Positions 353 through 35,521 of a stretch of DNA of 35,521 bases are shown in pieces (the stretch's first letter is position 1; each line of letters starts with the position of its first letter). Both the position numbers and the translations under genes were made by a program. This stretch comes from Spirogloea muscicola (taxonomy: Eukaryota; Streptophyta; Zygnematophyceae; Spirogloeales; Spirogloeaceae). Under the pieces are notes generated by a model. It was given only the letters and a program-made list of their open reading frames with translations, ran no database searches and was not told where the DNA came from. The DNA lies in assembly GCA_009602725.1 (NCBI GenBank), contig WELB01000112.1:151145-186665 (forward strand), in the 5' to 3' direction.

Positions 353-520
353 GCGTCCTCTGGCTGATGTCTTCGTCCTAGTCCAAAGGCATGGACTGTA
401 GTGTAGTTCTTTTTCGGCTCCTCTTTCTTTGGCTTGGGATATTGTCCATTCTTTTTGGGCTGGCTTTGCCAGCCACTCTTCTCTATGGGCGAGCACATCT
501 CTTTTGGCTTCCTCCAGCAC
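353..520 (+). mobile_element. LINE 3' UTR with terminal hairpin
   Basis: Directly after the LINE stop codon. It contains GGCTGGCTTTGCCAGCC at 458-474, a perfect 7-bp stem with a TTT loop, followed by CTATGGGCGAGCAC. The same arrangement, with clear similarity over about 100 bases upstream (TTTTTCGGC, CTCTTTCTTTGGCTT, ATTGTCCATT), follows the LINE stop on the minus strand at 18152, so this is shared 3' UTR and not chance. Confidence 0.75.
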
Positions 521-2464: not shown

Positions 2465-2655
2465 GAGTGCTCCACTCTGGCCAGGGGACCCACTTTCAGG
2501 ACCCTAGCCTCTCTGATTTGCGGCTGCTTAGCAGGGTTTACTGAGTGATTTGCAGCTGCTTTCTTTCTTTGTGTGCTTTGTTTTCTTAGCGCTTCCTCTG
2601 GCCCCCCTTCTCGTACTTTGTTCATTCTTTTTTGGGCTGGCTTTTCCAGCCCCTA
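2465..2655 (+). mobile_element. LINE 3'-terminal fragment with 3' UTR hairpin
   Basis: On the plus strand the last codons of the LINE (S-L-S-D-L-R-L-L-S-R-V-Y-stop) end at about 2545. They are followed about 90 bases later by GGGCTGGCTTTTCCAGCCC at 2634-2652 and CTCAATGGGCGAGC. Only some 80 bases of coding end remain. It sits head-to-head with the minus-strand fragment at 2200-2455, so at least two insertion or rearrangement events occurred here. Confidence 0.75.
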
Positions 2656-2679
2656 TCCTCAATGGGCGAGCCCTTCTCT

Positions 2680-3495
2680 CCGCAGCCACCGAGAAGCCCG
2701 CCTCCGCCTCCGCCGGGCATGCAGTGAGCTCTTCATAGAAGAAAGACTCTTTCTACACCCTTTCTTCCAGAGGGGTCTGGGGCTGTGAACTGTCAGCCCA
2801 AGAGAAAATAATGAAAAGGGGACTCGAGTACCCGGTAAGGAGAAGCTCTGCGCGCTTGGCTGCTACTTCTGGGTTGGGGTGCCTCTACGTGCTGACTCGT
2901 GATTTCTGAGCGGGTCAGCTTAGCAGCAGGTGATGTACATCTGTCGATGTACTTGCCTTTGTACTTGGCCGCTCAGGCCCTCCATCACTCAATACACACT
3001 TGATTACCTAGATGCAATTCACTCCGACCTGCGGCTGCTGATTCCAGTTTGCTAAGCTCCCATTCGCTGTAGTCTCTTGCATAGCTGTGTGATTCTGGTG
3101 GCTTTTGGCCCTTTGGACCTTGATCACTGACGTCTATTGGTAATGGCATGAACTCGTCTCCTATAAGGGGGGTCGCATATTCAAGCCTTCAGCCCCCCAG
3201 GTAGTTTTGGTGACCACGTTCCCCACCTTATGGCCGAGAAAGAAGCTCTTCAAGGCTAGGAAGTCGCTGCTGTCTTGTCTGAGAACCAGCTCTTGAAAAG
3301 GGAGGCGATGGCTGTTAAAGGCTAGCCCAATGTCTTCGTCCTAGTCCTTCGCACTCCGGCTCCTTCAGACCTTGTCCATTCCTTTGGGCTGGCATTTTCC
3401 TGCCACCAGTCAATCTGGCCGCGCTTTCAGTTAGCCCAAAAGCAATGAACAAACTCGCAAGGGCCCGGCATCCCACGCAGCTACGCAAGTGACTA
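2680..3495. other. Intergenic repeat-rich stretch
   Basis: No gene is seen. A degenerate reverse-orientation hairpin unit lies near 3303-3335 and a forward one at 3386-3404, the latter followed by CCACCAGTCAAT-TGGCCGCGCTTT-like sequence that recurs at 34245-34268. The rest holds nothing I can assign. Confidence 0.4.
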
Positions 3496-3740: not shown

Positions 3741-4690
3741 CGCAAGCGGCTGGAGAATGTCCACCGAGTACCAAGAGTTCCGTGGGCGTCGAACGCCAGC
3801 ACAACAGAATCGCCCCCAGCAGGGTTGTCCTCGTTCTTGCGCTCCTTGGCGCCTGCAGCCTTACTGCCCACGTGCCCTGCCTCCTGAGCATATTGCTTTG
3901 GGTTGGCAGAGTCAAAAGGGTCTTTACTAACGAAGTCCTTAACAAGGCGAGCTCTCCGGCTCGACGTGATGGTGTCGACTGTGTGCTAAGTACCTCGCCG
4001 CCCCTCTTTTGAAGAAGCTCCTTGACTCTGACTTTGAATATTGAAGAAGCTCTTTCTAAGGGCGACGGCTGTGAAGGGCCAGCCTGGAAATGTGTGAACA
4101 AGTCTTATCATGAAGAAGCTTTTTTACCGGGGGCGATGAGCGTGAGAGGCCAGCCCAGAATGAGAGTACTTCACGAAGGAAGCGATTGCTGTGCCAGGTC
4201 AAAAAGCGGACAAAGGCCATCACCCACCATAAAGCCCTAAGCCCGTAAATATCTTAACACTTTATAGTCTGAAAGAGCCGGAACATGTGTACCATGTATG
4301 AAAGCAAGTGACTACTATGGACGGCGGCTCAATCACCCCTAGACCGCCGCTAAGCACCGCTAAAGCTCATCCAGGGGGCGAAACATTTGAAAAGCCAGCC
4401 TTGAAAGAATGGACAAGGTCTGAACGGGCCAATAAGAAGTAGCTACCAAAGAAGAAAGGGCTCGTCCATTGAGGATAGGGGCTGGAAAAGCCAGCCCAAA
4501 AAAGAATGAACAAACTACGAGAAGGGGGCCAGACCAAAAGGGGTGGAGGGCTGTGAAAAGCCAGCCCAGATAGAATGGACAGCCATCGCCTTAATTTGGA
4601 AGAGCTTGTTCTCTTTCGGAGGCTGCCGACCATGTCGCCTAAGGCAAGGAGAGCGTAACATGCTGACCTATCAGCATGTTATCACCTATC
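3741..4690. repeat. Cluster of reverse-orientation hairpin units
   Basis: At least five minus-oriented copies of the LINE 3' UTR hairpin occur without adjacent LINE coding sequence: degenerate ones around 4059-4090 and 4134-4160, then about 4376-4400, 4478-4497 (GGGGCTGGAAAAGCCAGCCC) and 4548-4567 (GGGCTGTGAAAAGCCAGCCC). On the minus strand each is preceded by a TTGTCCATTCT-like motif (seen on the plus strand as AGAATGGACAA). Spacing is 70-100 bases. No gene is seen in this stretch. Confidence 0.65.
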
Positions 4691-4985
4691 CGCGGCAGGA
4701 CGGAAATTCTTCCCTTGCCATCGACGGGGCAGTCCGTGCTCAGTGGCTCGAGTCGGCAAGCGCGCAGCGGTGTGTCCAGACGACGGGAAGAAAGCCGATT
4801 ATCCAGCGCGGCAGGCCCTCTCGCCTAGGTGTATCGCATGCGCCAGTCAGTATCGTTGCAGCAGCCAATTGCACACGCTTTGCATCTGCGTGCTAGTTGC
4901 GCCCTGGCTGCAGCCTCAGGTTATAGAGAGGGGATCTGCTAACGAGAGACTATTTTCTCTGACCTGCGGCTGCGTCATTAAAGCT
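4690..4985 (+). mobile_element. Decayed LINE 3' coding fragment
   Basis: Plus-strand frames give L-A-I-D-G-A-V-R-A-Q-W-L-E and then, in another frame, Y-R-M-R-Q-S-V-S-L-Q-Q-P-I-A-H-A-L-H-L-R-A and a C-A-L-A-A-A-S-G-Y-R-E-G segment. These follow the order of the LINE C-terminal region. A frameshift, internal deletions and loss of the terminal residues show decay. Downstream hairpins at about 5069-5087 and 5171-5187 fit a 3' UTR position. Confidence 0.7.
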
Positions 4986-5660
4986 CAATTGAGCACTAAG
5001 TGGCCACTTGAGTCGCTGCGTGCTTTAGCTTCTCTCTGGACCCTTCATACTTTGTTCAACGTTTTTCTGGGCTGGCCAATCAGAGCCATCGCCTCTACTG
5101 AAAGAGTCTTATCTTTCACCATGGCTGGTGCGGCTTTCCGGCCTTTTCGGACCTTGTTCATATTTCGTTGGGCTCTCTCACAGCCCTCGCCCCCTTACGA
5201 TGAGCTTATTCACTAGAGATAGTGGCTCTTTTATAGGGGCCGAGGGCTGTGGAAAGCCAGCCCGAAATGGAGTACCACTTAGGAAAATCACTTAATGATC
5301 TCTAATTAGCAGCCGCAAGTCAGAAAGACTAGCCGCCGGAAAGCCGTCCCCTTGACGAAAGAGACTGCAGCGAGAGTACGCCCAGTATGCGGATGCAAGT
5401 CGTGGGCCATGGACCAAGCCACAGCTATTGCCTTGAATCAAAACAATGAGGCTCTTGATGTTGAAAGGGCGGCTGTACTAGCAAGCCAGGTGCTTACATT
5501 GAAGGGAAGTAGAAGGAGGGAATGTGCTGTTTCTGTTCTGCGGCAGGGCTGCAGGATCCTAGCCTGTGGCTCCGTCATGAACACTTTCCGTATGCACCTG
5601 GCTGGCATTCACAGCCGCATCTTTTCATATCAGCGGACGCATTTTAGGATCCACAGTAGT
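4986..5660. other. Repeat-rich spacer with three hairpin units
   Basis: Hairpin-type units: forward at 5069-5087 (imperfect) and 5171-5187 (GGGCTCTCTCACAGCCC, a 5-bp stem), reverse at 5244-5263. The segment about 5295-5400, read on the minus strand, resembles the LINE end once more (the reverse complement of S-D-L-R-L-L near 5310-5330). No host gene is seen. Confidence 0.45.
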
Positions 5661-6185: not shown

Positions 6186-6300
6186 GTGGTCCATCCTCCA
6201 CCCATTCTGCCATAGCATTTTCAGGCCCCTCCGTGATTGTGGCCCATTCGAACCTTCGTCAATTCTTTTCGGGCTGGCTTTTCCCAGCCCTTGCCCCCGT
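6186..6300 (+). mobile_element. LINE 3' UTR with hairpin
   Basis: Follows the stop of the copy above. It is clearly similar to the UTR of the minus-strand copy at 18480-18616 (TCCATCCTCC, TTTTCAGGCCCCT versus CCTTAGGCCCCT, GAACCTT-GT-AATTCTTTT). Its hairpin is GGGCTGGCTTTTCCCAGCCC at 6271-6290. Confidence 0.75.
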
Positions 6301-6565
6301 TGGGAGACCACCTTCTTCACAAGATGCGCGGCCAGTTCCGCCCACGTGGCCGACGTGTGAACGAACTCTCGGAGCTCCGCGCTGACGCCAGCGCTTACCA
6401 GTAGATGGCTGCGTTGACTGTGATAGGCCAGCCCAGAACAACGAAAGAGCGAAGTGCAGACCATTTGGCGCTTCTTCAATATCAGCAGGCGGCAGTTCTC
6501 CCCTTCTTCCCCCCCCACCTCTCAATGGGCGAGCACCTTCTTCTTCCCCCCCCACCTCCGCCGCC

Positions 6566-17999: not shown

Positions 18000-18450
18000 G
18001 GGGCACTTTAACAAGGCAGGGAGAAAGTGCTCGCCCATAGAGAAGAGGGGCTGGCAAAGCCAGGCCAAAAACAATGGACAATGTCCAAAGCCAAAGAAAG
18101 AGGTGCCGAAAAAGGACTACTCTACCAAACACGACAACACACTAGGGAAGCTCAGTACCTGCGAGTGAGCAACAGCAGGTCAGAGTAGCTCGATGCAGGG
18201 AAGGAGGCACTCCGCCGAGACCCGGAGGCGGCGGCCAGAGCGCGTCCTGCGCTTAATGACGCGCGCCAAAGACAATCGAGAAAGTGCTCGCCCATCCCCC
18301 AGAAGAATGTGCTCGCCCATAGAGGGGCTGGTAGAAGTTTGTTGCAGGAGTGTGTTGCATGTTGTGCCCCGGGGCACAACATACTCTGGTGGCTTGTTGC
18401 TGACTGGTGACAGTGCCCGTCCGCATGCGGAACACCTGCGCTAGCGAGCC
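18000..18450 (-). mobile_element. LINE 3' end with internal insertion of a 3' UTR fragment
   Basis: On the minus strand the LINE block V-F-R-M-R (near 18430) is separated from A-G-R-A-L-A-A-A-S-G-S-R-R-S-A-S-F-P-A-S-S-Y-S-D-L-L-L-L-T-R-R-Y and its stop (18152-18154) by about 160 bases. That extra sequence carries two copies of ATGGGCGAGCAC (18284-18330) next to a partial hairpin, i.e. 3' UTR material. The copy's own 3' UTR follows, with CTGGC-TTT-GCCAG at 18047-18066. It belongs to the same sub-family as the fragment at 34379-34462 (shared G-S-R-R-S-A-S). Confidence 0.75.
18359..18382. repeat. Perfect 24-bp palindrome
   Basis: The half-site ATGTTGTGCCCC is followed directly by its exact reverse complement, with no spacer. 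It lies inside the interrupted LINE copy. It could be a protein-binding site, an insertion-derived inverted junction or a cruciform-prone spot. Not seen elsewhere in the window. Confidence 0.8.
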
Positions 18451-18479
18451 AGCGGCGTCGCAGTGATTTTGAAAGAAGT

Positions 18480-20368
18480 GGCACTCTCAATGGGGGCAAG
18501 GGCTGCGAAAAGCCAGCCCAAAAAGAATTCACAAAGGTTCAGAGGGGCCTAAGAGCGGTGAGCAGCTACAAAGGGGCCTAAGGATGCAATGGTAAAACAG
18601 GGGGAGGATGGATCACTCAATAAGTACGAGTGAGGAGCCTCAGATCCGACAGACTAGCTGCCGGGAAGCTATCACCCTGACGAAAGCCAGAGCCCGCAGC
18701 GAGAGCACGGCCAGCTCGCAGGTGCAGAGCGTGGTCCATGGACCGCTGCAGGGATACAGAGAGGCGCATCCGATATACCTGAGCCCACGAGCCCGCGGCG
18801 TTGAAGTCGGCTGGCTCGCCGCGTCTGCGAGACACAGCCCGCCGCGCAAGCCTAGCCAATAGGTCAAGCCACTGGGACCCAAGAGCCCCGTGCACGTCCA
18901 CCACCAAGGGGACGAACTCGTTGGCAGGTGGGTGGTTGGAGTGCTTGGCCGCCTTGCAGCGAGCGGCCTTCGAGGCAGCGTGGCCGGCCCGCGAGGCAGA
19001 GAGCCCCAGGTTGGAGCGGTCGACCACATCGGTGGTGACTACATCGGCTATGATCCGCGCGCCACCTCCCGGCGTGGACGCCACCAGGTCCACACGACGC
19101 GTATGGTGTCCGTCAGCCCTCTCGAGGATGGGCATGACCGAGGCGTTCTCCATCGCCACCGTGTAGCCCGCCTCCTGAAAGATCCCGAACATAGCATCAC
19201 GCAAGAGGTCGTGCGCAGCTGTTCGTTCGCCTCCAGTGGCGCAGCGGAGGAGATGCGCCGCCAGCTCCGCCGGGTCCGTCGACCGCTCCCCACATTCGCA
19301 CTGCAGCACGCCCAGCAGGCAGGGCGGGGGGAGGCCCAGCAGGCGATGCGTGGCCGTGCGGAACAGCTCGTCCGGCAGCCTGAGCGCATCATACAGTGGG
19401 AGCGCAGAGAGCCAGGCTGCCGCGCCGGGGGAGGCGGCCGACAGCAGCCGAGCACGGCCGCGCACGTCGCCTGCGGGGAGGAGCTGCAGCGTGTCCGTGA
19501 ACGTCGCCTTGTCCACAGCAGCCATGTATCGCGCCTGCGCCTGCGAGTCGGAGGTGTGGGCGAGGTGAGCGAAGGGGACCACGCTCTCTGCAAGGGCCGG
19601 ATGCTCCGCGAGTAACCCGTCCTGGGCTGAGCGGAGGGCCTCCTGGAAAGGCAGCGAGCCAGTCGCCACCTCCTCCACAACCTGCTGCAGCAGGGGCCGC
19701 CCATCATGGAGGAAGCGCTGCGCCACCGACGTGGCGACCTGTGCCCAACTGCCGAGGAATGCTGGCCTGCAGACGCGCGCGAGCGAGCGGCAGCCGAGGC
19801 CGCCCTGGCCAGGGGGCAGTGTGGCCTGGAGCGTAGCGGCTGACGAGGCAAGGAAGCCATCGTGGCGGATGAGGGCCGCCGCGCCCTCCATGACCCCCGC
19901 GTCGAATGTGGTGTAGGCCGCCAGCACCGCGGGGCAGGGAGGGGTCGTCCGCGCCAAGTAGTGAGGACGCTGCACAATGCATCGATTGAGCATGGCAAGC
20001 GCCAGCTGCATGTCCTGCAGCTCGGGGAGGCGGGCCACTGGCTGGAGGTGCTCCTGAAGGCGGACGCGCAGTTGCCCGTCGACGAACGCTGGCGTGCCGA
20101 ACGGGACCCCAAGGATGGTGAGGCCGCTTGGGGGAGTTTGGCACCCAGGCGGCAGGGGCAAGGCGGCAGGGAGGACACGCGGCGACCACGCGGTACACTT
20201 CTCCGGGCGGATGGTCATGCCAAGGGCGGCCAGCTGCTGCTGGAAGGTGACGGTGGCTGCCGAGACCTCCCCCGGGCTGCCGACGAGCGTGGTGTCGTCG
20301 GCGTAGGACGGCAGAAGGACGCCGGGGTGCGCCGCCGCGGTGGCCCTGAGAGCGCGGCTGTGAGCCAT
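18480..20368 (-). mobile_element. 5'-truncated LINE with long intact ORF and 3' UTR
   Basis: Largest LINE copy in the window. Coding part 20368-18617, then a 3' UTR ending in GGGCTG...CAGCCC at 18500-18519. The 5' end cuts into the reverse transcriptase palm just before the catalytic YADD, so motifs 0-4 and any N-terminal region are missing. That is typical of incomplete target-primed reverse transcription. The 5' end lies about 320 bases from the NUP58 start codon, antisense to it. No target-site duplication could be defined by eye. Confidence 0.88.
18617..20368 (-). CDS. LINE polyprotein C-terminal part: RT palm end, zinc motif, restriction-like endonuclease
   Basis: 583 codons without a stop. 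In order: RT catalytic motif Y22-A-D-D25 with T-T-L-V-G after it (20305-20294); a palm/thumb region with G-L-T-I-L-G-V (residues 82-88) and H-Y-L-A-R; a zinc motif C357-x-C359-x12-H372-x3-C376 (19300-19241); then a restriction-like endonuclease signature with R425-V-D427, D442 in A-D-V-V-T-T-D and K475 in A-A-K-H, plus a conserved V-V-D-V-H-G-A-L-G block. This C-C-H-C plus PD-(D/E)xK order is that of RLE-type LINEs (R2, NeSL and similar). The family arginine-proline-aspartate is here arginine-valine-aspartate. The first in-frame ATG is probably internal to the full protein, because the element is 5'-truncated. It could encode only a C-terminal fragment if expressed. Confidence 0.88.
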   Translation of the reverse strand: MAHSRALRATAAAHPGVLLPSYADDTTLVGSPGEVSAATVTFQQQLAALGMTIRPEKCTAWSPRVLPAALPLPPGCQTPPSGLTILGVPFGTPAFVDGQLRVRLQEHLQPVARLPELQDMQLALAMLNRCIVQRPHYLARTTPPCPAVLAAYTTFDAGVMEGAAALIRHDGFLASSAATLQATLPPGQGGLGCRSLARVCRPAFLGSWAQVATSVAQRFLHDGRPLLQQVVEEVATGSLPFQEALRSAQDGLLAEHPALAESVVPFAHLAHTSDSQAQARYMAAVDKATFTDTLQLLPAGDVRGRARLLSAASPGAAAWLSALPLYDALRLPDELFRTATHRLLGLPPPCLLGVLQCECGERSTDPAELAAHLLRCATGGERTAAHDLLRDAMFGIFQEAGYTVAMENASVMPILERADGHHTRRVDLVASTPGGGARIIADVVTTDVVDRSNLGLSASRAGHAASKAARCKAAKHSNHPPANEFVPLVVDVHGALGSQWLDLLARLARRAVSRRRGEPADFNAAGSWAQVYRMRLSVSLQRSMDHALHLRAGRALAAGSGFRQGDSFPAASLSDLRLLTRTY

Positions 20369-20685
20369 TTTGGAAGAGCTAGCTGTTGCCTAGCTTCTTC
20401 CATGAGCCGCGCGCCGGCGGCTGCGGTGTTTGGGCCGGCTTCCTTCTCAACCAGTACTGGCTTAAATAGGCTACGCTTTCGATTCAAGCGCACCGCGCGC
20501 ATTACGATGTATCCACCAGCTCCCCAAATGCTTGTGGCGCGGCACTGCGGCCAGCAGAAGTGAGAGCTGCGGCCAGTGCTGTCGCTACGCGCTCGCCAGG
20601 CTGCAGGCGCTGACCCGGCAGGGCCACGGCGCGCGCCCGGCGGCGAGCTTTTGGGATTTGGTATTAGGCTTCAGTGGAGGCGCCC
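20369..20685. promoter_or_regulatory. Upstream region of NUP58 abutting the LINE 5' end
   Basis: GC-rich. On the minus strand it holds a TATA-like TATTTAA near 20462-20469 followed by an ATG at about 20403 opening M-E-E-A-R-Q-Q-L-A-L-P-K before LINE sequence begins. This may be the 5' end of another gene or promoter into which the LINE was inserted, or chance. On the plus strand it must contain the NUP58 promoter; no clear motif is recognised. Confidence 0.35.
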
Positions 20686-27300: not shown

Positions 27301-30300
27301 GTGTGGCATTTGCCAATCTCCTGCACATGGGGCACAGGTACTCTCCCTGGCATACAGAAACACCAGGTTGGTCTTAGATATCAGCGAGGATGTGCCCAAG
27401 ACTTGATCACTGCTGTGGTGGAGAGCCACAAGCTGGAGCACCAATGGCATCTAACGATTTAAAAAGCTGCCCTCAACCTGGATATACTCATTGAATTCCC
27501 AGCATGTTGAGCATCTATACTGAAGCAGTACAACTTTGGCACGGCCTGATGCACGCAGATTGAGCATTTTGTTCGCAATTCCATGCTTCACTTGCCAATG
27601 ACCATGCTATTTGTTATCTAGCTTAAGAAGGCTGGCACAGTGATTCTTAATGTCAAGGACAAACTTACCTCCACAGGATTGACAACACTGGCTCCCTCAT
27701 AATACTCGCGGCTCAAATACCTGCTTCATGAGAAAGGAGAGCATGAGAGCTAGCTGGTCCAATCTGCTTGATACCTTAAAAGCCAGGTCAAGGTCTTATC
27801 AGTCCGTCTTCTGCTTGAAATTAGACACGCAGACCTGACCGTGCCAATGTGCTGACAAACAAGCAGACCAGACCATGTCATCAAGGTGTCTAATGCACAC
27901 ATTGCATCCTTGGCAGGGCTATATAAGTCAATACAATAAGCTTCAAAAGTCTTAGCATGGTTGTCCTCGTCTGTGCTCTCATGCTCAGCCGCAGATGAAT
28001 CCTGACCTTTGCAAGAGGGAGGAGAAGTAGCGGTCGAGGCAGCTTTGGTGAAGAGCGTGCCCGCATGTTGCCACGTGCAGCTTGGCGCTGACGTCTAAGC
28101 CATGGTGGGCGCCCACCCTCCGCCTGCCCCTCCGCCGGCGGCTCTCCGCCTCCAGCTCAAGTCCGCCATCCAGATCCATATCTGCAACACCAGCAGCCGC
28201 CCCCCTGCCCGGCAAATGATCCATGATATCAACCAAGCCCCCGGAGAAGCTGACGCCGCCCCGCCTCTCCGCTGCCGCCGCCGATCTGGCCCGCTCCTCC
28301 CTAAGATTGTGGATTGCTGAGACATACTCCGCTAGAACGTCCCTGGTCGGCCCCACCTCGGCTGCAGGCCCACTTTGCCGGTCTGAGTTGCTCGGCGCTG
28401 CCGCTAACTGCTCCTCGACCGTACGCTCATCATTGTCTGCAAGAGTTGTGTCCATACTTTCTTGCAAGAGTTCAGCCGACTGTTCCGGAAGCTGAAAGCC
28501 TTGAACCTCTGTGCCTGGACGACTCTGCTGGACAACCAGATTGAGCTCCTCCGCGCTCATCAGTTCCGTCTCATCTTGCGGCTCTTGTGTCGGCTGGACA
28601 AGGGATATTGATTTTTGGGCCTCCAAGCCCTGCAGGGCGTGCGATGCAGGGGCAAGTTGAGGCAAGCCCCATGACGAGGAGCGGAGCATGGACGCTGCCA
28701 CAAGCTTGGACCGCTGTGCCAGAGCCACGTAGCAGAGGGGGCTCTCCGCAGCCCAGAAGCTGCTCTCACGGCACAGCGCGCACACGAGCGACGCCGAGTG
28801 CGTATCCTGCACCCGCCCTCCTTCGCTCCTCTCCTCAGCCTCCTCTGCATCTGGCACATCACCCATAGACACTGGAACGACGCCTGTGGCAACAGCTGGG
28901 GGCCGTGCCTCCAGCGGGCCTGCTGACATATCGCTGTCGTCGTCATTCTCCCTGCCCTCCTTCCGCCTGCTCTGCTCGCTGCCGCCCCTTGAGCCTTGAG
29001 CTATGGATGCCGCAAAGCGGTCCTGCGCACTACGCATGCGGGCCATTGCCTCTGCCTGCCGCATCTTTGCCAGCATCTTGCGACGATCGCCCTCAATTGC
29101 CCCTGCCGGAGGGGAGCTGGCAACCCTCCCTATCACTGTCGGGCTGTCCGTGCAGACTCCCACAATGTCGGGCGCCAGCTCCTCGGCTTCTCGCCGGCAT
29201 GCCTTGCTCAGGACCGTGAGTTCCTTGAGCAAGCGCGCCGCCAGCTGCGCCAGCTCGCCCCTCTCACCTTCCTCCAGCCGGCCACCACCATCATTGGCGC
29301 TGCGGCTAAGCTGCCCATTGGCAAAGCTGCGATCTGCCCACTTGCGTTGCAGGTCGGCGAGCAGCGAGAGAAGGCTGCAGGAGCCCTGACGGCCCCTTGC
29401 CTCCTGCACGGTGACATACTCTGCTGCCCGACTCACAAGTGGGACCTCCTGCGCGCGTATCAATTGCTTCCCCACAGCAGCTTTGCAGGCACTCAGGCCT
29501 AGTGCGAGCAGGTGGAGGGCGGCAAGCACGACGTGGTCAGGCGCCCGAGAGGTGCTGGCACTCTGGGCGTCCACCGCCTGCGCGTGGAAGAGAACGGAGA
29601 CGACCATCTTGTACACACCTGACGTTGTTGCAATCTGCCAGAGGCTGCTAAGTGGAGGAGTGGGGTCTTGCCACGTGGGTAGCTGGCTCGTTGATGCGGG
29701 CATGCCAAGCACCTCCTGAAAGCGGTCCTGGGTGCGCTGCAGCTCCCGGGGAGACCAGCGGACGTGGTAAAGATCCAGCTCGCGCCAGCACTCCTTCTTC
29801 AGAGAGTATTTGCCCTGGATGTGGGCCAACATATTGCAAGCGAGGTCACTACAACAGAAGCATCAAGGTCCTCTTCAAAGTGTGCACCCTTTGAAGAACA
29901 TACAGGCTCTGTAGCCTACTTATCATATGACTGTCTACTTTGAGTCGTACTTTATGTACAGAGAATTTCAGATATATGTCGCTGCCATCTCTTGTAAAGA
30001 AGGAAAACAATCACGAACACAGACGCCTCGGATGTCAGACCTATACTGACCAAGCCATGTGCGTCAGCCTCAAGAATGAAAGCGGGCAGAGTAACATGTA
30101 TGCAAACAAGAACCCAATCAGACTGTGCAAACCATCGTGGTATTGTAAGGAATGCAAAGGGCCCTACCTGTTCCAAACCACGGGGCATGCTGTAATCAGC
30201 CACCTGCTCCAGACAGGGCGTAACAAGAGGCGAGTCCGCTAGCTGCTGCGGGAGGCTCTCCAGAAGAGTGCTATGTGTTGCGTCACCTGCTGCCAGGCGC

Positions 30301-33300
30301 TGCACCAGCTCACGTCGGACACTCTGCTCGGTGGACAGGCCGCACAGGCTGCGCTCAGAGACCAGGCGGATGAGGAAGCAGAGGAGGTCGTGGGCGACAT
30401 CTGGCTCGTATTCATTTGCGGGCGTGGCGGACAGTGTGAAGTATTCAGCCAAGCCAAAGCGTTCGCAGACGCGGCCGACCAAGGCTTCTGGGAAGGAGAG
30501 CACTGCGCAGCACTGCAACAGGAACATGTCCAGCTCCAAAGTGTTCTCACACCTGCAAGGACTTGGTGTACATTTAGTATCAAGCATGATCAGGCAGTTT
30601 GGCAGCCTCTGATCCTTGGGGCACAATCCAAAGCATCTCATGATCTGAGACTCTTGACGCACATTCACAGATGCCTATCGTCTGAGCAGATTGCCGAGTG
30701 CCCACCCACCAATTGCACCCACAAAAACCAAAACCCTCAAAATTTTAAACCCCATCTACAAAAGAATCTCGTATGACAGGGCAGCAACCTGAATTTCAAG
30801 GTTAAAAAGTGCTGCAAGCTCTCTCACCAAAACACGGAGTGATATCGGTCAGCGAGCGCCACCATAGGGTGCCCATTCCGCCGCCACATGCCAGCTTGGA
30901 CTTGCGCGCACGCTACTTGCAGTCGCAGCGGGTGCTCCATGAGGGCCATGACAAAGCCGGGTGACCGAAATTCGGCTGGGAGAATGTCCAGCAGAAAGCT
31001 CTCGCCCGGAACAGCGACCTTGTTGCCTGCAGCTACAGCAGGGCCCAGTGCGCTGTGCAGCAGAAGCGCCAGCATGCGGTGCAGCGGAATGTGGAAGGAT
31101 ACCTCGAGCTGCGATGCATCTGGAACAATTGGTGAATCCTGGATGCTGAATGCAGCAGCGGCGTCTGGTAGGACCAAGGGCGTGTCGCTGCCCATCCACC
31201 ACATGTCGTCCTGGCTCTCTTCTACACCTCTTGTCAAGGACCCATTGACATCCACCACCTCACCGCTCTCCTCTCTCTCATTACCCTGCAACCTGTTCAA
31301 CTCCGACAAAGTCTCACGCATCCTGGCTTGCTGCGCAGCAGGGGCATTGTGATGAGCGGGCGGCCTGGCCCAGGCTCCTTGCTCTGCCTCTGCTTCAGGG
31401 GCTGTTGCATTCTCCATCTGCACATCCTCCGCCAACTCCGCTGCCGCCGCCGCCGCCGCAGCCGCCGCAGCCGCCGCCGCCGCGGGTCTCCGTCCATTCT
31501 CCTCCTGGGGCGGCCTCTCCATGGGCACGCCGCGGATCGTCACCCTCCCCAGGCGCAACTCCCTGGCAGCCCTCCCTGGCGGCAGCCGCCGGGTGGCGGC
31601 AGGGGCAGCCGCCTGGCCCTGGGGCTGCCTGGTGGCCCGGGCAGCATCCACAGCCAGCCAGAGGGCCACAATTTGCAGGCACTTGGACAAGAGATACAGC
31701 AGGGGCCCGGCCACCGCCACGCCTGCGATTCGATGAAGGCCCCAGCCGTGGACCTTGTCAGCCGCCTGCAGTGCAAATGCACTTGCCGTTGCCTGCGAGT
31801 GGCCAGCACCGCAGCCTCCTCCCTCCGGCAGCGATGCCTGATCCGCGGCGCCCTGTACCAGGAGCGTGTGAAGGCCAGCGAGCCGCTTCTCCAGCGTGTA
31901 CGAGTGCGACCAGTCGTCGCTCTCGACCTCCACATGCACGTGCACTTGGCGGACCTGGACTGCCATGCCCTGCAAGAACGCCAGGAGCTGCAGGAAGGTC
32001 TGCATCAACGCCGGCTGCTCCCTTGCTGTCCACCGCGCCACCTCCGGGTGGCTCAGCACGTAGCGAAGGTCCTCGGTGATGCGCCAATAGTGCTTCTTCC
32101 GCACCTCCCTCGTCCTGACCTGGATCCAGTGTGACAGGGTTGATTGATCAAGGGCTCATTAAGCAGAACACCACAGAAATGGTTCACAGAGCGAGAGCGC
32201 ATCATGCCAACATGCTCTTGCAGCCATCACAGATGCGAGTGTGCATGTCAAACTCTCATCTGCATAGACTTGCAGAGGGCTTAGAATGAGAGCACAGTAT
32301 GATGTCAAACTCAAAAAAACTGCAAGTAGCAAGAGTTCAGAGCTGTACATCAATGCGACCATCTTTGCCAGCGGCTAAGCGCAGGACGCGCTTGAGCATG
32401 CCCAGAAGCATGCTAAGGAGGCCGGCCTTCTCAACAAGGTGCGCCGTGAGCACTGGCACAGAGAAGATCTGCACCGAGAAGCTGTCAAGCACCGAGTGCT
32501 CAAAAAGCAGCACCTGGTACTCGGCCGGGTCAGACAGGAGGCTGTCATCCTCGTCAGTGGCAAACTCCCCAAGGAAGGAGTTGTAGTTGCTGATGAAGAC
32601 GAGAGAAAATGCTAGCTTGAATGCCGGATCACCAAGGAGCTTATACAGCAGCGCATGTGCGGAGGTCACCACATCCTTGGAGGCGGCGCGCTCGGCAAGC
32701 ATGAGCTCGGCGAGCAAACTGAGGCCCGGCGCAGCCACACACTCCGCCACGAAGCGCGTGGCCGACTCGCCGCAGTGGCACAGGCCCAGCAGCATGTCGA
32801 CCAGCGCTTGCGTCAGGCACCCTGCCTCCTGCTCCTCGCGGCCCTGTCGATCCCAGTGCCGTGCGCGCCGCATATCCGCCGCCTCGCGGGCGCCACTAAG
32901 GCAATCGCACCACCTACGCATCGTGGCGCCAAGCACCGGCCTTGCACGGCCGACAAACGCTTCCGGCAGTGACACCGGCGGCGCCCCATCAGACGGCCGG
33001 CGGTGGCGTGCACAGAAGCCACCCTCTTTCCACGCGCTCACGTCCCCGCAGTCGCAGCAGCCGCCGCCCGTGCGGATCATGGAATAGTCGTGCGCGCCGT
33101 GATCGCCCTCCAGGAAGCACTGCATGCACACTGCGCACGTCGGGTCGTTCTCGCATGTCCGGCACCGGTATGCAACGTCGTCCAGGCCCCAGATGGCTCC
33201 GCAGACGCCGCCCGAGGCACCGGCCACGCGCTTGAGGTGCTCCTTGGCAGCCTGCGGCTCCTGGCCATAGAGCAGCCAGGCCAGCCAGTCCACCGCCTCC

Positions 33301-33521
33301 TGGAAGCGCGCCAGGACCGTGGTGGAGCTGCCCTCCACATCCTCCAGGCTTGGCAGGAGGGCCCACACGATGACGTCGAGCTTGCCAGGATGGCTGGCGG
33401 CGAATTCCACCACGTTCTCGGGGCCCCATCCCAGCGTGTCCTGGTGCAGCCAGCTGGCCAGGCGCTGAAGACAGCGCGTCGACAGTGCAGCAGTCGTCAA
33501 TTGGGGCTCCTCGGCGCCATC
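24362..33521 (-). CDS. PRT6: PRT6-type N-degron E3 ubiquitin ligase (UBR box, RING, C-terminal UBR4-like autoinhibitory region), 5' end incomplete
   Basis: Twelve minus exons: from 33521 or further to 32349; 32119-30828; 30552-30168; 29814-28007; 27720-27669; 27346-26701; 26510-26299; 26127-25559; 25382-25266; 25005-24930; 24650-24573; 24478-24362. All junctions are GT-AG and phases agree, giving about 2170 residues, a usual size. It recognises N-terminal basic residues and ubiquitylates the substrate. The UBR box (33206-33000) has A-Y-R-C-R-T-C-E-N-D-P-T-C, H-D-Y-S, G-G-C-C-D-C-G-D and A-W-K. Exon 2 begins with H-Y-W-R-I-T-E-D-L-R-Y-V-L-S-H-P-E-V-A; exon 3 has L-D-M-F-L-L-Q-C-C-A and G-D-A-T-H-S. 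The RING is spread over C-A-L-C (28790-28768), C-G-H-A-L-H-x3-C (about 28079-28040) and C-P-M-C-R-R-L-A-N (exon 6). The C-terminus has C-L-V-C-G-R-L-C, C-G-G-G-T-C-V-F-L-L-I-R, W-P-S-P-Y-L-D-A-H-G-E-E and G-K-P-L-Y-L-N. No ClpS-like domain is seen, as in plant PRT6. No in-frame ATG precedes the UBR box, so a 5' exon is missing. Confidence 0.92.
27669..27720 (-). CDS. PRT6: 52-base micro-exon completing the PRT6 RING region
   Basis: Bounded by GCAG before 27720 and GTAAGT after 27669. It enters in phase 2 and leaves in phase 0, adding 17 residues (Y-L-S-R-E-Y-Y-E-G-A-S-V-V-N-P-V-E) after the RING histidines and before G-E-Y-L-C-P-M-C. Without it the frames of the flanking exons do not meet; with it they do, and the E-G-x-x-V-V-x-P sequence is what plant PRT6 proteins have at this place. 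It is easy for automatic gene finders to miss. Confidence 0.88.
31440..31484. repeat. GCC-type trinucleotide repeat coding poly-alanine in PRT6
   Basis: An imperfect (GCC)n run in exon 2 of PRT6 is read on the minus strand as about 15 alanines between R-R-P and E-L-A-E-D. It lies in a low-complexity linker, not in a catalytic domain, so length variation is probably tolerated. Confidence 0.85.
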
Positions 33522-34209: not shown

Positions 34210-34380
34210 GGCTGTCCATTCCTTTTGGGCTGGCTTCTCCCAGCCACCAGTCAATTCGGCCGCGCTTTTGTTGCTGACTATACATGGTCCTCTTCTAATA
34301 ATATCCTTCAGCGGCTTTCGGCACCCCTTTTCCTTCGAACCTTGTTTTCTCCGGGCTGGCTTTTTCCTTGCCCTCGCAGT
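34210..34380 (+). repeat. Two hairpin units of the LINE 3' UTR family
   Basis: GGCTGGCTTCTCCCAGCC around 34228-34245, preceded by CTGTCCATTCCTTTT and followed by CCAGTCAATTCGGCCGCGCTTT, as at 3360-3430. A second, degenerate unit (GGGCTGGCTTTTTCCTTGCCC) lies at 34353-34373, immediately before LINE coding sequence. Confidence 0.65.
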
Positions 34381-34462
34381 CCACACTCGCGCAGGACGCG
34401 CTCTGGCCGCCGCCTCCGGGTCTCGGCGGAGCGCCTCCGTCCCCGCATCGAGCTATTCCGAG
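34379..34462 (+). mobile_element. LINE C-terminal coding fragment (G-S-R-R-S-A-S sub-family)
   Basis: Reads V-H-T-R-A-G-R-A-L-A-A-A-S-G-S-R-R-S-A-S-V-P and then A-S-S-Y-S-E, i.e. the last part of the LINE ORF up to about ten codons before its stop. It then jumps, in frame, into the middle of another LINE copy. Confidence 0.75.
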
Positions 34463-35521
34463 GGCCTCACTCTCCTCGGCGTCCGCCTGGGCGCACCTGC
34501 CTTCGTGGCGGAGCAGCTGCAGGGGCGGCTGCAGGACCACCTCCGGCCGGCGGCCCGCCTGCACACGCTGAACGACATGCAGCTGGCAACCGCCATGCTG
34601 ACCCGGTGCATCTCGCAGCGGCCCCACTACCTGGCCCGCACCGTCCTTCCCTCACCGGCGGTGACGGCAGCGTATGAGGCCTTCGACACCGGCATCATGG
34701 CGGCCGCAGCCTCCCTCGTGCAGCACCCGGCGTTCCTCACCACCCAAGCTGCGCAGCTGCAGGCCAGCCTGCCGATCAGTCGTGGCGGCTTGGGATGCCG
34801 CTCAGTTGCCCGCGTCTGTGAGGCGGCCTTCCTGGGAAGCTGGGCGCAGGTGGCCGCCCCCATGTGTCAGCGGTTCCTCGTGCACGGACAACGCGCCCTG
34901 GAGCGGGCGGCAGCCGATGTGGAGACAGGCCAACTCCCCTTCCAAGTCGCCCTCCGCACTGCCCGCGACAGGCTCCTGCAGGTCCACCCCAACATGTCCG
35001 AGCAGACTGTTCCTTTCCGGCACCTCGCCCACACTCCAGACCTGCGGGCTCAGGCACGCTTCACGGCGTTGGTCGAGAAGGCGGCCTCCGACCAGGCGGT
35101 GGAGCTTCTCCCTCCGTCTGACGTTCGCGGGCGTGCTCGGCTTCTCTCCGCCTCTTCCCCTGGGGCGGCGGCGTGGCTCCAAGCGCTCCCACTCTATGCC
35201 GCACTTACCATGCCCGACGAGGTCTACCGGACGGCGGTGCATCGGCTCTTGGGGCTCCTCCCTCCCTGCCTTACAGGTGTCACACAGTGCGAGTGCGGCG
35301 CCCGGCACGCCGACCCTGCGGAGCTGGCCGCGCACATGCTCCGTTGCGCCCACGGAGGCGAGAGGACCGCTTCCCATGATCTTTTGCGCGATGGTATGCA
35401 GGGGGTGTTCATAGAGGCGGGCTTCAAGGTGGCGGTGGAGTGCTCCTCAGTCATGCCCATCCTGCGGGGCGAGGACGGCCGGTCGCACACCCGGCGCGCC
35501 GACCTGGTCGCTATCCCGCCC
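34463..35521 (+). CDS. LINE ORF, middle to endonuclease part, running off the window
   Basis: 353 codons without a stop to the last base. Starts abruptly at G-L-T-L-L-G-V (equivalent to residues 82-88 of the minus-strand copy) and runs colinear with it: D-M-Q-L-A-T-A-M-L, H-Y-L-A-R, G-G-L-G-C-R-S, F-L-G-S-W-A-Q-V, D-V-R-G-R-A-R-L-L-S-A, the zinc motif C-E-C-x12-H-M-L-R-C (about 35288-35350), and H-T-R-R-A-D-L-V-A at the start of the endonuclease. It differs from the other long copy at many synonymous and conservative positions but keeps all key residues, which suggests purifying selection on the source elements. The YADD motif is absent, so this copy is 5'-truncated. Confidence 0.88.

Follow-up and report, generated by a model that had tools for sequence, protein, structure and literature searches.

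A hairpin and a possible outer helix as a candidate recognition module at the 3' end of a Spirogloea LINE

Introduction

The locus described here raises the question of whether a LINE of Spirogloea carries, at the 3' end of its RNA, a structure by which the element's own reverse transcriptase would recognize its template. In the available parts of the work cited here, the detailed accounts of LINE tail recognition concern animal elements. In zebrafish ZfL2, a protein of the element binds a 3' stem-loop that is needed for retrotransposition (PMC4176376, as excerpted). For R2Bm, the accessible sections describe a 43-nt tag that is as good as the 248-nt untranslated region (UTR), and for R2Tg, 67 terminal nt with a pseudoknotted element (PMC10499050, PMC12222951); compact R2 tags of this kind have been used in gene insertion work (PMC12222951, same sections). 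A LINE from a microbial eukaryote with a compact 3' module would provide a further natural case for comparing the RNA choice of these enzymes. Among the titles and abstract openings listed by a literature search, we found none on 3' structures of protist LINEs, and the portions of PMC12014239 and PMC11453091 that were available contained nothing on this subject; most subscription journals fall outside the scope of that search, and its outcome is therefore no sign that such structures are unpublished.

We analyzed a contig stretch of 35,521 nt, referred to as the window. Copies of the LINE 3' end are named by the position of their hairpin (e.g., 457, 18066, and 4401).

Results

The window contains a LINE and 19 copies of its hairpin

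The protein-coding part of the LINE is represented by one long reading frame:

18617..20389 (-): LINE open reading frame (ORF), 5'-incomplete, with a YADD reverse transcriptase end, a CxC..H..C knuckle and an endonuclease-like C-terminus; the stop lies at the low-coordinate end

This 5'-incomplete ORF matched RVT_1 with an E value of 0.0021, which is below the curated Pfam cut-off. It contains SYADDTTL, which we take to be the end of the reverse transcriptase, and CxC..H..C followed by R-x-D-L-V ... A-D-V-V, presumably the order of a knuckle and a restriction-like endonuclease. The ORF gave no Pfam match to a knuckle or an endonuclease and no match among solved (PDB) structures, and the predicted protein model was poor (pLDDT 38.5). 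Judged by its motifs, the LINE is plausibly of the restriction-like endonuclease (RLE) type.

Using the LINE C-terminal motif plus stop as a query, we obtained seven matches, with stops at 352, 2544, 3055, and 6185 on the plus strand and at 18617, 18152, and 5292 on the minus strand. Six of the seven are followed by a hairpin 29 to 105 nt past the stop. An earlier note on this DNA had reported hairpins at five LINE ends, and all five are present at the reported sites:

458-464/468-474 (+): hairpin arms of copy 457, 105 nt past the stop
2634-2640/2646-2652 (+): hairpin arms of copy 2634, 90 nt past the stop
6271-6277/6284-6290 (+): hairpin arms of copy 6271, 86 nt past the stop
18519-18514/18505-18500 (-): hairpin arms of copy 18519, 98 nt past the stop
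18063-18059/18055-18051 (-): hairpin arms of copy 18066, 86 nt past the stop

The sixth end belongs to copy 5263, with its hairpin 29 nt past the stop. For the seventh match, at 3023-3055 (+), a search of 130 nt revealed no hairpin, and nothing resembling the arm lies at a suitable distance; the match contains four mismatches, its DNA similarity to the other ends is weak (best E 0.16, 55 nt), and it may represent a chance match or a remnant. At the protein level, identity to the ORF of copy 18519 amounts to 66% for the C-terminus of copy 457 (type A) and to 78% and 86% for the two C-terminus pieces of copy 6271 (type C). Remnants with the RAGRA motif and without an intact end were found at 4889 (+), 34388 (+), and 3609 (-); the first is followed by hairpin 5069, the second continues in frame into an internal ORF segment, and the nearest same-strand hairpin for the last is 3328.

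The sequence GGGCTG followed by CAGCC approximately 3 to 11 nt further on occurs 16 times on the two strands of the window; after dinucleotide shuffling of the window (60 replicates), the mean was 0.9 and the maximum 5. A profile search with the block around the hairpin identified 19 copies in the window, 18 of them at E ≤ 3.1e-6 and one (34353) at 0.011, with the next match at 0.11; this recovery is partly circular because all 19 copies were in the training set. Because the copies were located first, and mainly, via the 5' arm, the conservation of that arm is biased. In a search using only the upstream flank, nine sites were found, and the arm was present in all nine (seven exact, two with one mismatch). 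The copies, together with the tail-only fragments described below, are 5'-truncated and have a common 3' end, a pattern by which LINEs are recognized. The 19 copies are as follows, where z compares fold stability with that of shuffles and P compares outer strands with shuffled strands:

441..500 (+): type A module; outer strands 442-449/485-492 (TTGTCCAT/ATGGGCGA), inner arms 458-464/468-474; 60-nt fold z -4.35, 0/200 shuffles as stable
2616..2678 (+): type B module; outer 2617-2626/2661-2670, inner 2634-2640/2646-2652; z -2.87
6251..6314 (+): type C module; inner 6271-6277/6284-6290; outer weak (P 0.53); z -1.73
18475..18539 (-): type C module; inner 18519-18514/18505-18500; possible outer strands in another register, 18532-18523/18488-18478 (P 0.066); z -2.28
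18024..18085 (-): type A module; outer 18081-18074/18038-18031; inner CTGGC/GCCAG 18063-18059/18055-18051 with one broken pair beyond; z -1.67
4456..4516 (-): type B module, absent from the earlier note; outer TTTGTTCATT/AATGGACGAG 4514-4505/4470-4461, inner 4497-4491/4485-4479; z -5.17
4362..4421 (-): inner hairpin decayed in this copy; outer CTTGTCCA/TGGATGAG, 5' strand from 4417 and 3' strand to 4366 (P 0.032); fold z +0.72, not exceeding shuffles in stability
5047..5112 (+): copy with GGGCTGGC at 5069; outer TTCA/TGAA and CTTT/AGAG (P 0.23)
5149..5209 (+): copy with GGGCT/AGCCC at 5170; outer P 0.40
4044..4106 (-): copy with hairpin at 4085; outer CTTgTTC/GAAaGAG with a central G-A mismatch (P 0.35)
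5219..5279 (-): copy with hairpin at 5263; LINE stop 5292, 29 nt before; lacking the upstream strand that the other types have for the outer helix
4534..4584 (-): copy with hairpin at 4567; copy 4497 starts 70 nt on, and the tail seems interrupted
4112..4171 (-): copy with hairpin at 4156
3284..3332 (-): copy with hairpin at 3328
2761..2815 (-): copy with hairpin at 2799
6396..6449 (-): copy with hairpin at 6434
3372..3429 (+): type D copy with hairpin at 3386
34210..34270 (+): type D copy with hairpin at 34227; GC-rich outer GCGGCTG/CGGCCGC in another register (P 0.060)
34344..34374 (+): weak copy with hairpin at 34353; profile E 0.011

The terminal block is better kept than the remaining 3' UTR

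To compare types A, B, and C, we divided the sequence past the stop into the UTR up to the block and the terminal 64-nt block. The UTR, for which the comparison starts 1 to 3 nt off the stop in four of the six ends, was shuffle-like in all eight between-type comparisons (z -1.7 to 1.0), whereas the block gave z values of 8.5 to 21 in the same eight. With the 8-nt search arm left out, the 22 nt upstream had z values of 2.4 to 4.4 in all eight comparisons, and the 34 nt downstream had z values of 4.7 to 15.5 in six; in the other two, copy 18519 versus type A, they were only 0.3 and 1.5. As these flank-only scores show, the between-type similarity of the block rests partly on the search arm. The terminus of the LINE is thus kept better than the UTR, though less strongly than the z values of the block suggest. 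Copy 5263 was left out of these comparisons because its UTR is too short; its block gave z values of 4.6 to 7.0 against types A and B, and its upstream flank had no similarity to five other copies (z -0.9 to 0.0). A tail that is common to related elements and goes beyond poly(A), as in LINEs of the stringent type, was found for types A, B, and C. The tail-only fragments 18318, 18293, and 6527 agree up to approximately 8 nt past GGGCGAG, which places the end of the element close to the block.

The inner stem is not maintained by paired changes

The earlier note had stated that the stem is kept through paired changes between copies. We scored the register GGGCTG/CAGCCC (six pairs in 19 copies) on a hand alignment that was checked against the window and was used because a MAFFT alignment placed the 3' arms wrongly. 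Among 23 departures from the consensus pair, 17 were unpaired, 5 were one-sided G-U pairs, and 1 was two-sided and still pairing. The latter, a change from G-C to A-U, lies in copy 4401 (-), where three of the six pairs are broken. In total, 96 of 113 cells were paired, compared to a mean of 95.3 with shuffled partners, and 39% of 2,000 shuffles reached 96. All six pairs were intact in 7 of the 19 copies, at least one was broken in 11, and one copy had a gap. The departures were confined to the 3' arm in 19 of 23 cases, in part because the copies were located by the 5' arm. Cognate inner arms did not differ from arms swapped between copies (P 0.29 to 0.42), and RNAalifold on 18 of the 19 copies returned only a 4-bp inner stem at -2.2 kcal/mol. 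These data contradict the idea of paired changes, which membership among stringent-type LINEs would not require in any case: most departures break the pair, pairing is at the level of shuffles, and the inner stem displayed no covariation above background, the outcome that the earlier note had itself named as speaking against its claim, at the low power that 19 related copies provide.

The boundary of the stem appears to shift between copies because the loop-side bases of the 3' arm, i.e., the partners of positions 7 and 8, vary, while the 5' arm mostly reads GC. At positions 7 and 8, the stem is completed by the 3' arm in copies 457 and 18066 and left incomplete in others; in copy 457, pairs 2 to 8 are present and pair 1 is absent. 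An alternative register, TGGC/GCCA plus GGGC/GCCC, pairs in 114 of 149 cells, compared to 106 of 149 in the eight-pair register, and is the better fit for copies 5069, 4156, 4085, and 3328. This alternative may explain the seeming shift in register; covariation is unable to test it because the 5' arm is nearly fixed.

The lack of compensation in the inner stem favors a different explanation of the block, namely, that it is recognized, or merely inherited, as primary sequence, with an idle inner stem and an outer helix (described below) that arose by chance. Also in its favor, the 5' arm GGGCTGGC hardly varies, including in copies with an unpaired 3' arm, though the copies were located via the 5' arm, and at P 0.05, 12 of the 19 blocks are no more stable when folded than shuffled sequence. 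Against it, perfect stems of 6 to 7 bp are present in 9 of the 19 copies. The outer helix provides evidence on both sides, and with all of it considered, we regard this primary-sequence explanation as a real possibility, if an unlikely one.

An outer helix around the hairpin is supported but not settled

By folding the block, we found a second helix around the hairpin, which the earlier note had overlooked. In copies 457 and 18066, its strands are TTGTCCAT/ATGGGCGA; in copy 2634, they are TTTGTTCATT/AATGGGCGAG; in copy 4497, TTTGTTCATT/AATGGACGAG; and in copy 4401, in which the inner hairpin has decayed, CTTGTCCA/TGGATGAG. Less regular forms of the helix occur in copies 5069, 4085, 5170, and 18519. 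Strand against strand, the helix was more stable than with shuffled strands at P < 0.05 in 5 of the 19 copies (457, 2634, 18066, 4497, and 4401), with P values of 0.060 for copy 34227 and 0.066 for copy 18519; in 10 copies, the outer strands did no better than shuffled strands (P > 0.2). When entire 64-nt blocks were folded, 7 of 19 were more stable than dinucleotide shuffles at P < 0.05. For the seven chosen modules, the z values were -5.17, -4.35, -2.87, -2.28, -1.73, -1.67, and +0.72; six of the seven exceeded the shuffle mean in stability, which argues against the primary-sequence explanation, and for four of them, at most 6 of 200 shuffles were as stable. In the minimum-energy fold of the module at 18475..18539 (-), the inner arms pair as well, but not in the register listed above. 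Whole-module folding was not strand specific (mean z -2.0 for sense and -1.7 for antisense; 18 copies).

Copy 4567 was excluded from later tests of the outer helix because its tail seems interrupted. In the remaining 18 copies, swapping outer partners among copies weakened the duplex in five window settings of up to 34 nt (P 0.003 to 0.04). With 14 representatives, the P values were 0.003 to 0.045, and in a jackknife at one window setting, every P value was ≤0.027. The preference for the cognate partner was found on the sense strand only (antisense P 0.21 to 0.54). This strand bias is what an RNA helix containing G-U pairs should produce, and it counts against an outer helix formed by chance. 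Distant flanks had no partner preference (P 0.85 to 0.96). In wider windows, the P values of the swap test rose to 0.07 to 0.55, and leaving out types A and B and copy 34227 gave P values of 0.06 to 0.09.

We also aligned 10 copies chosen for placeable outer strands. In this alignment, in which the outer partners of the C types are misplaced, 82.9% of the outer cells pair, compared to 34 to 58% when the strands are slid. Column-wise covariation in these 10 chosen copies was not above shuffles (74 of 500 reached the score), in agreement with the primary-sequence explanation, and register-fixed pair counts in eight chosen copies were not above those of swapped partners (P 0.09 to 0.20). One outer pair varies between C-G, U-G, and U-A (4, 3, and 2 of 10 rows, with one row unpaired), which is the pattern sought; one pair is no proof. 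Relatedness among the copies, together with the fact that the helix was spotted before any test of it, means that the P values reported here are underestimates. Altogether, the outer helix around the hairpin is supported but not settled.

A candidate recognition module

The preferred reading is that the last ~60 to 67 nt of the LINE RNA, with the hairpin inside the outer helix, are a recognition module for copying; we estimate its probability at roughly 0.55. In such a module, the inner hairpin would consist of the nearly invariant 5' arm GGGCTGGC, a short T-rich loop, and CAGCC. Near the 3' end of the element, it would be held in a loop closed by the outer helix, the upstream strand of which (TTGTYCAT type) would lie approximately 8 to 16 nt before the hairpin and the downstream strand of which (ATGGRCGAG or TGGATGAG type) approximately 9 nt after it. 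By analogy with characterized elements, the reverse transcriptase of the LINE would bind the module, and target-primed reverse transcription would start at the adjacent 3' end. The 3' module is real and probably functional, and it would be a device of a known kind, that of stringent-type LINEs. Regarding the proposal of the earlier note that the hairpin is the template-recognition element, its presence at six of seven ends and a terminus that can be aligned across types A, B, and C, unlike the UTR, are indirectly in its favor and make it reasonable; the compensatory change in the stem is absent.

The two helices could also have separate roles, as in a two-part lock and key: the hairpin would be a grip that is invariant across subfamilies, and the outer helix would differ per subfamily by paired changes, perhaps allowing subfamily-specific recognition. 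We consider this division of roles doubtful. If true, it would represent a nested 3' recognition fold beyond those that the available parts of the literature describe for R2 or L2-type tails. The visible hairpin does not covary, and the outer helix is the part worth testing.

Alternatively, the structure might have no part in reverse transcription and might instead help to form the 3' end of the RNA, or to stabilize or export the RNA in the host, in the style of the histone-type stem-loop. Compatible with such a role are a small GC stem close to where the RNA ends and the lack of a poly(A) run behind it in the copies inspected; in addition, one type carries AGCCACCA past the stem, a sequence that we take to resemble the histone element. 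An Rfam scan of the window gave nothing at the gathering score, however, and the two matches with E values of up to 3 do not include the histone stem-loop; moreover, in most A/B/C comparisons, the similarity extends beyond the hairpin in both directions. A host-side function therefore appears improbable to us. That the repeat matters as DNA, e.g., as an insertion target for further copies, is very improbable, since the five neighboring same-strand copy pairs within 130 nt that would fit it also follow from template jumping or nested insertion, the outer helix contains G-U pairs, and the opposite strand shows no partner preference.

Discussion

A recognition module as preferred here would resemble the tails of stringent-type LINEs (UnaL2, ZfL2-1, and ZfL2-2) in having a stem-loop at the 3' end of the LINE RNA (PMC4176376, available portion). 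The zebrafish elements are members of the L2 clade, and for the Spirogloea LINE a second, outer helix is proposed. With the 3' core of R2, the module would share the similar size of the RNA core, helices with single-stranded junctions, and, plausibly, an element of the RLE type (PMC10499050 and PMC12222951, as far as these were accessible). Going by the nucleotide numbers in the accessible text, P1 and P2 of R2Bm are consecutive, whereas in the Spirogloea LINE the hairpin would be nested in the outer helix. Unlike R2, copies of the Spirogloea LINE sit among other sequence of the window, outside any recognized rRNA gene. The 3' UTR stem-loops proposed for human L1 and Alu are likewise position specific and were found computationally (PMC5135761, in part). 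Human L1, from a different clade, represents the relaxed poly(A) type, and the function of these stem-loops is hypothetical as well.

Outside matches and additional observations

The two Rfam matches are HOTAIR_2 at 4062-4140 (+), antisense to two copies (E 0.048; 24.9 bits versus 60), and L13-Bacteroidia (E 1); we consider both to be chance matches. A search for the dinoflagellate spliced leader, allowing up to 3 mismatches, found none. In a set of viral contigs, four DNA patterns gave 0, 0, 1, and 0 matches and no further copy. The single match is on a contig with phage-like ORFs, lies inside a reading frame without the flanking block, and is attributed to chance. The LINE protein had no relative in the same set (two pattern stretches, neither related). 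Among genome contigs, the one match of the LINE protein out of 29 candidate stretches (39% over 69 residues) is on a contig of a bacterial metagenome-assembled genome on which no LINE ORF was seen; this match, too, is considered coincidental.

Several features of the window concern the fate of LINE copies:

18293-18340 (-): two tail-only fragments in tandem, starting in CCAGCCCCTCTATGGGCGAGCAC and ATGGGCGAGCAC
6519-6541 (+): one tail-only fragment, alone
34344-34600 (+): chimeric copy in which the LINE C-terminal fragment HTRAGRALAAASGSRRSAS runs in frame into the internal ORF part LTLLGVRLG
3372-3455: 5' half of the block in both orientations, facing, with a D-type tail between, forming a larger inverted repeat

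Judging by the tail-only fragments, some copies may keep only about the last 17 to 31 nt. At the DNA level, the chimeric fragment and the end of copy 18066 share 93% identity across 73 nt. The minus-strand half of the inverted repeat is a weak profile match (E 1.5). In five pairs (4567/4497, 4497/4401, 4156/4085, 5069/5170, and 34227/34353), same-strand 3' ends are arranged head to tail 70 to 126 nt apart, as nested insertion or template jumping would give.

Two other features lie in the window:

27985-33521 (-): host gene(s) encoding a UBR box (zf-UBR E 9.2e-20), plus weak, sub-threshold matches of UBR1-like and RING type
1295-1634: a 176-base unit in two tandem copies, 84% matching

From its domains, the former looks like an intron-split ubiquitin ligase of the N-recognin type. 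A PHD finger is also encoded in the window, which, together with the UBR-box gene, makes the window look eukaryotic.
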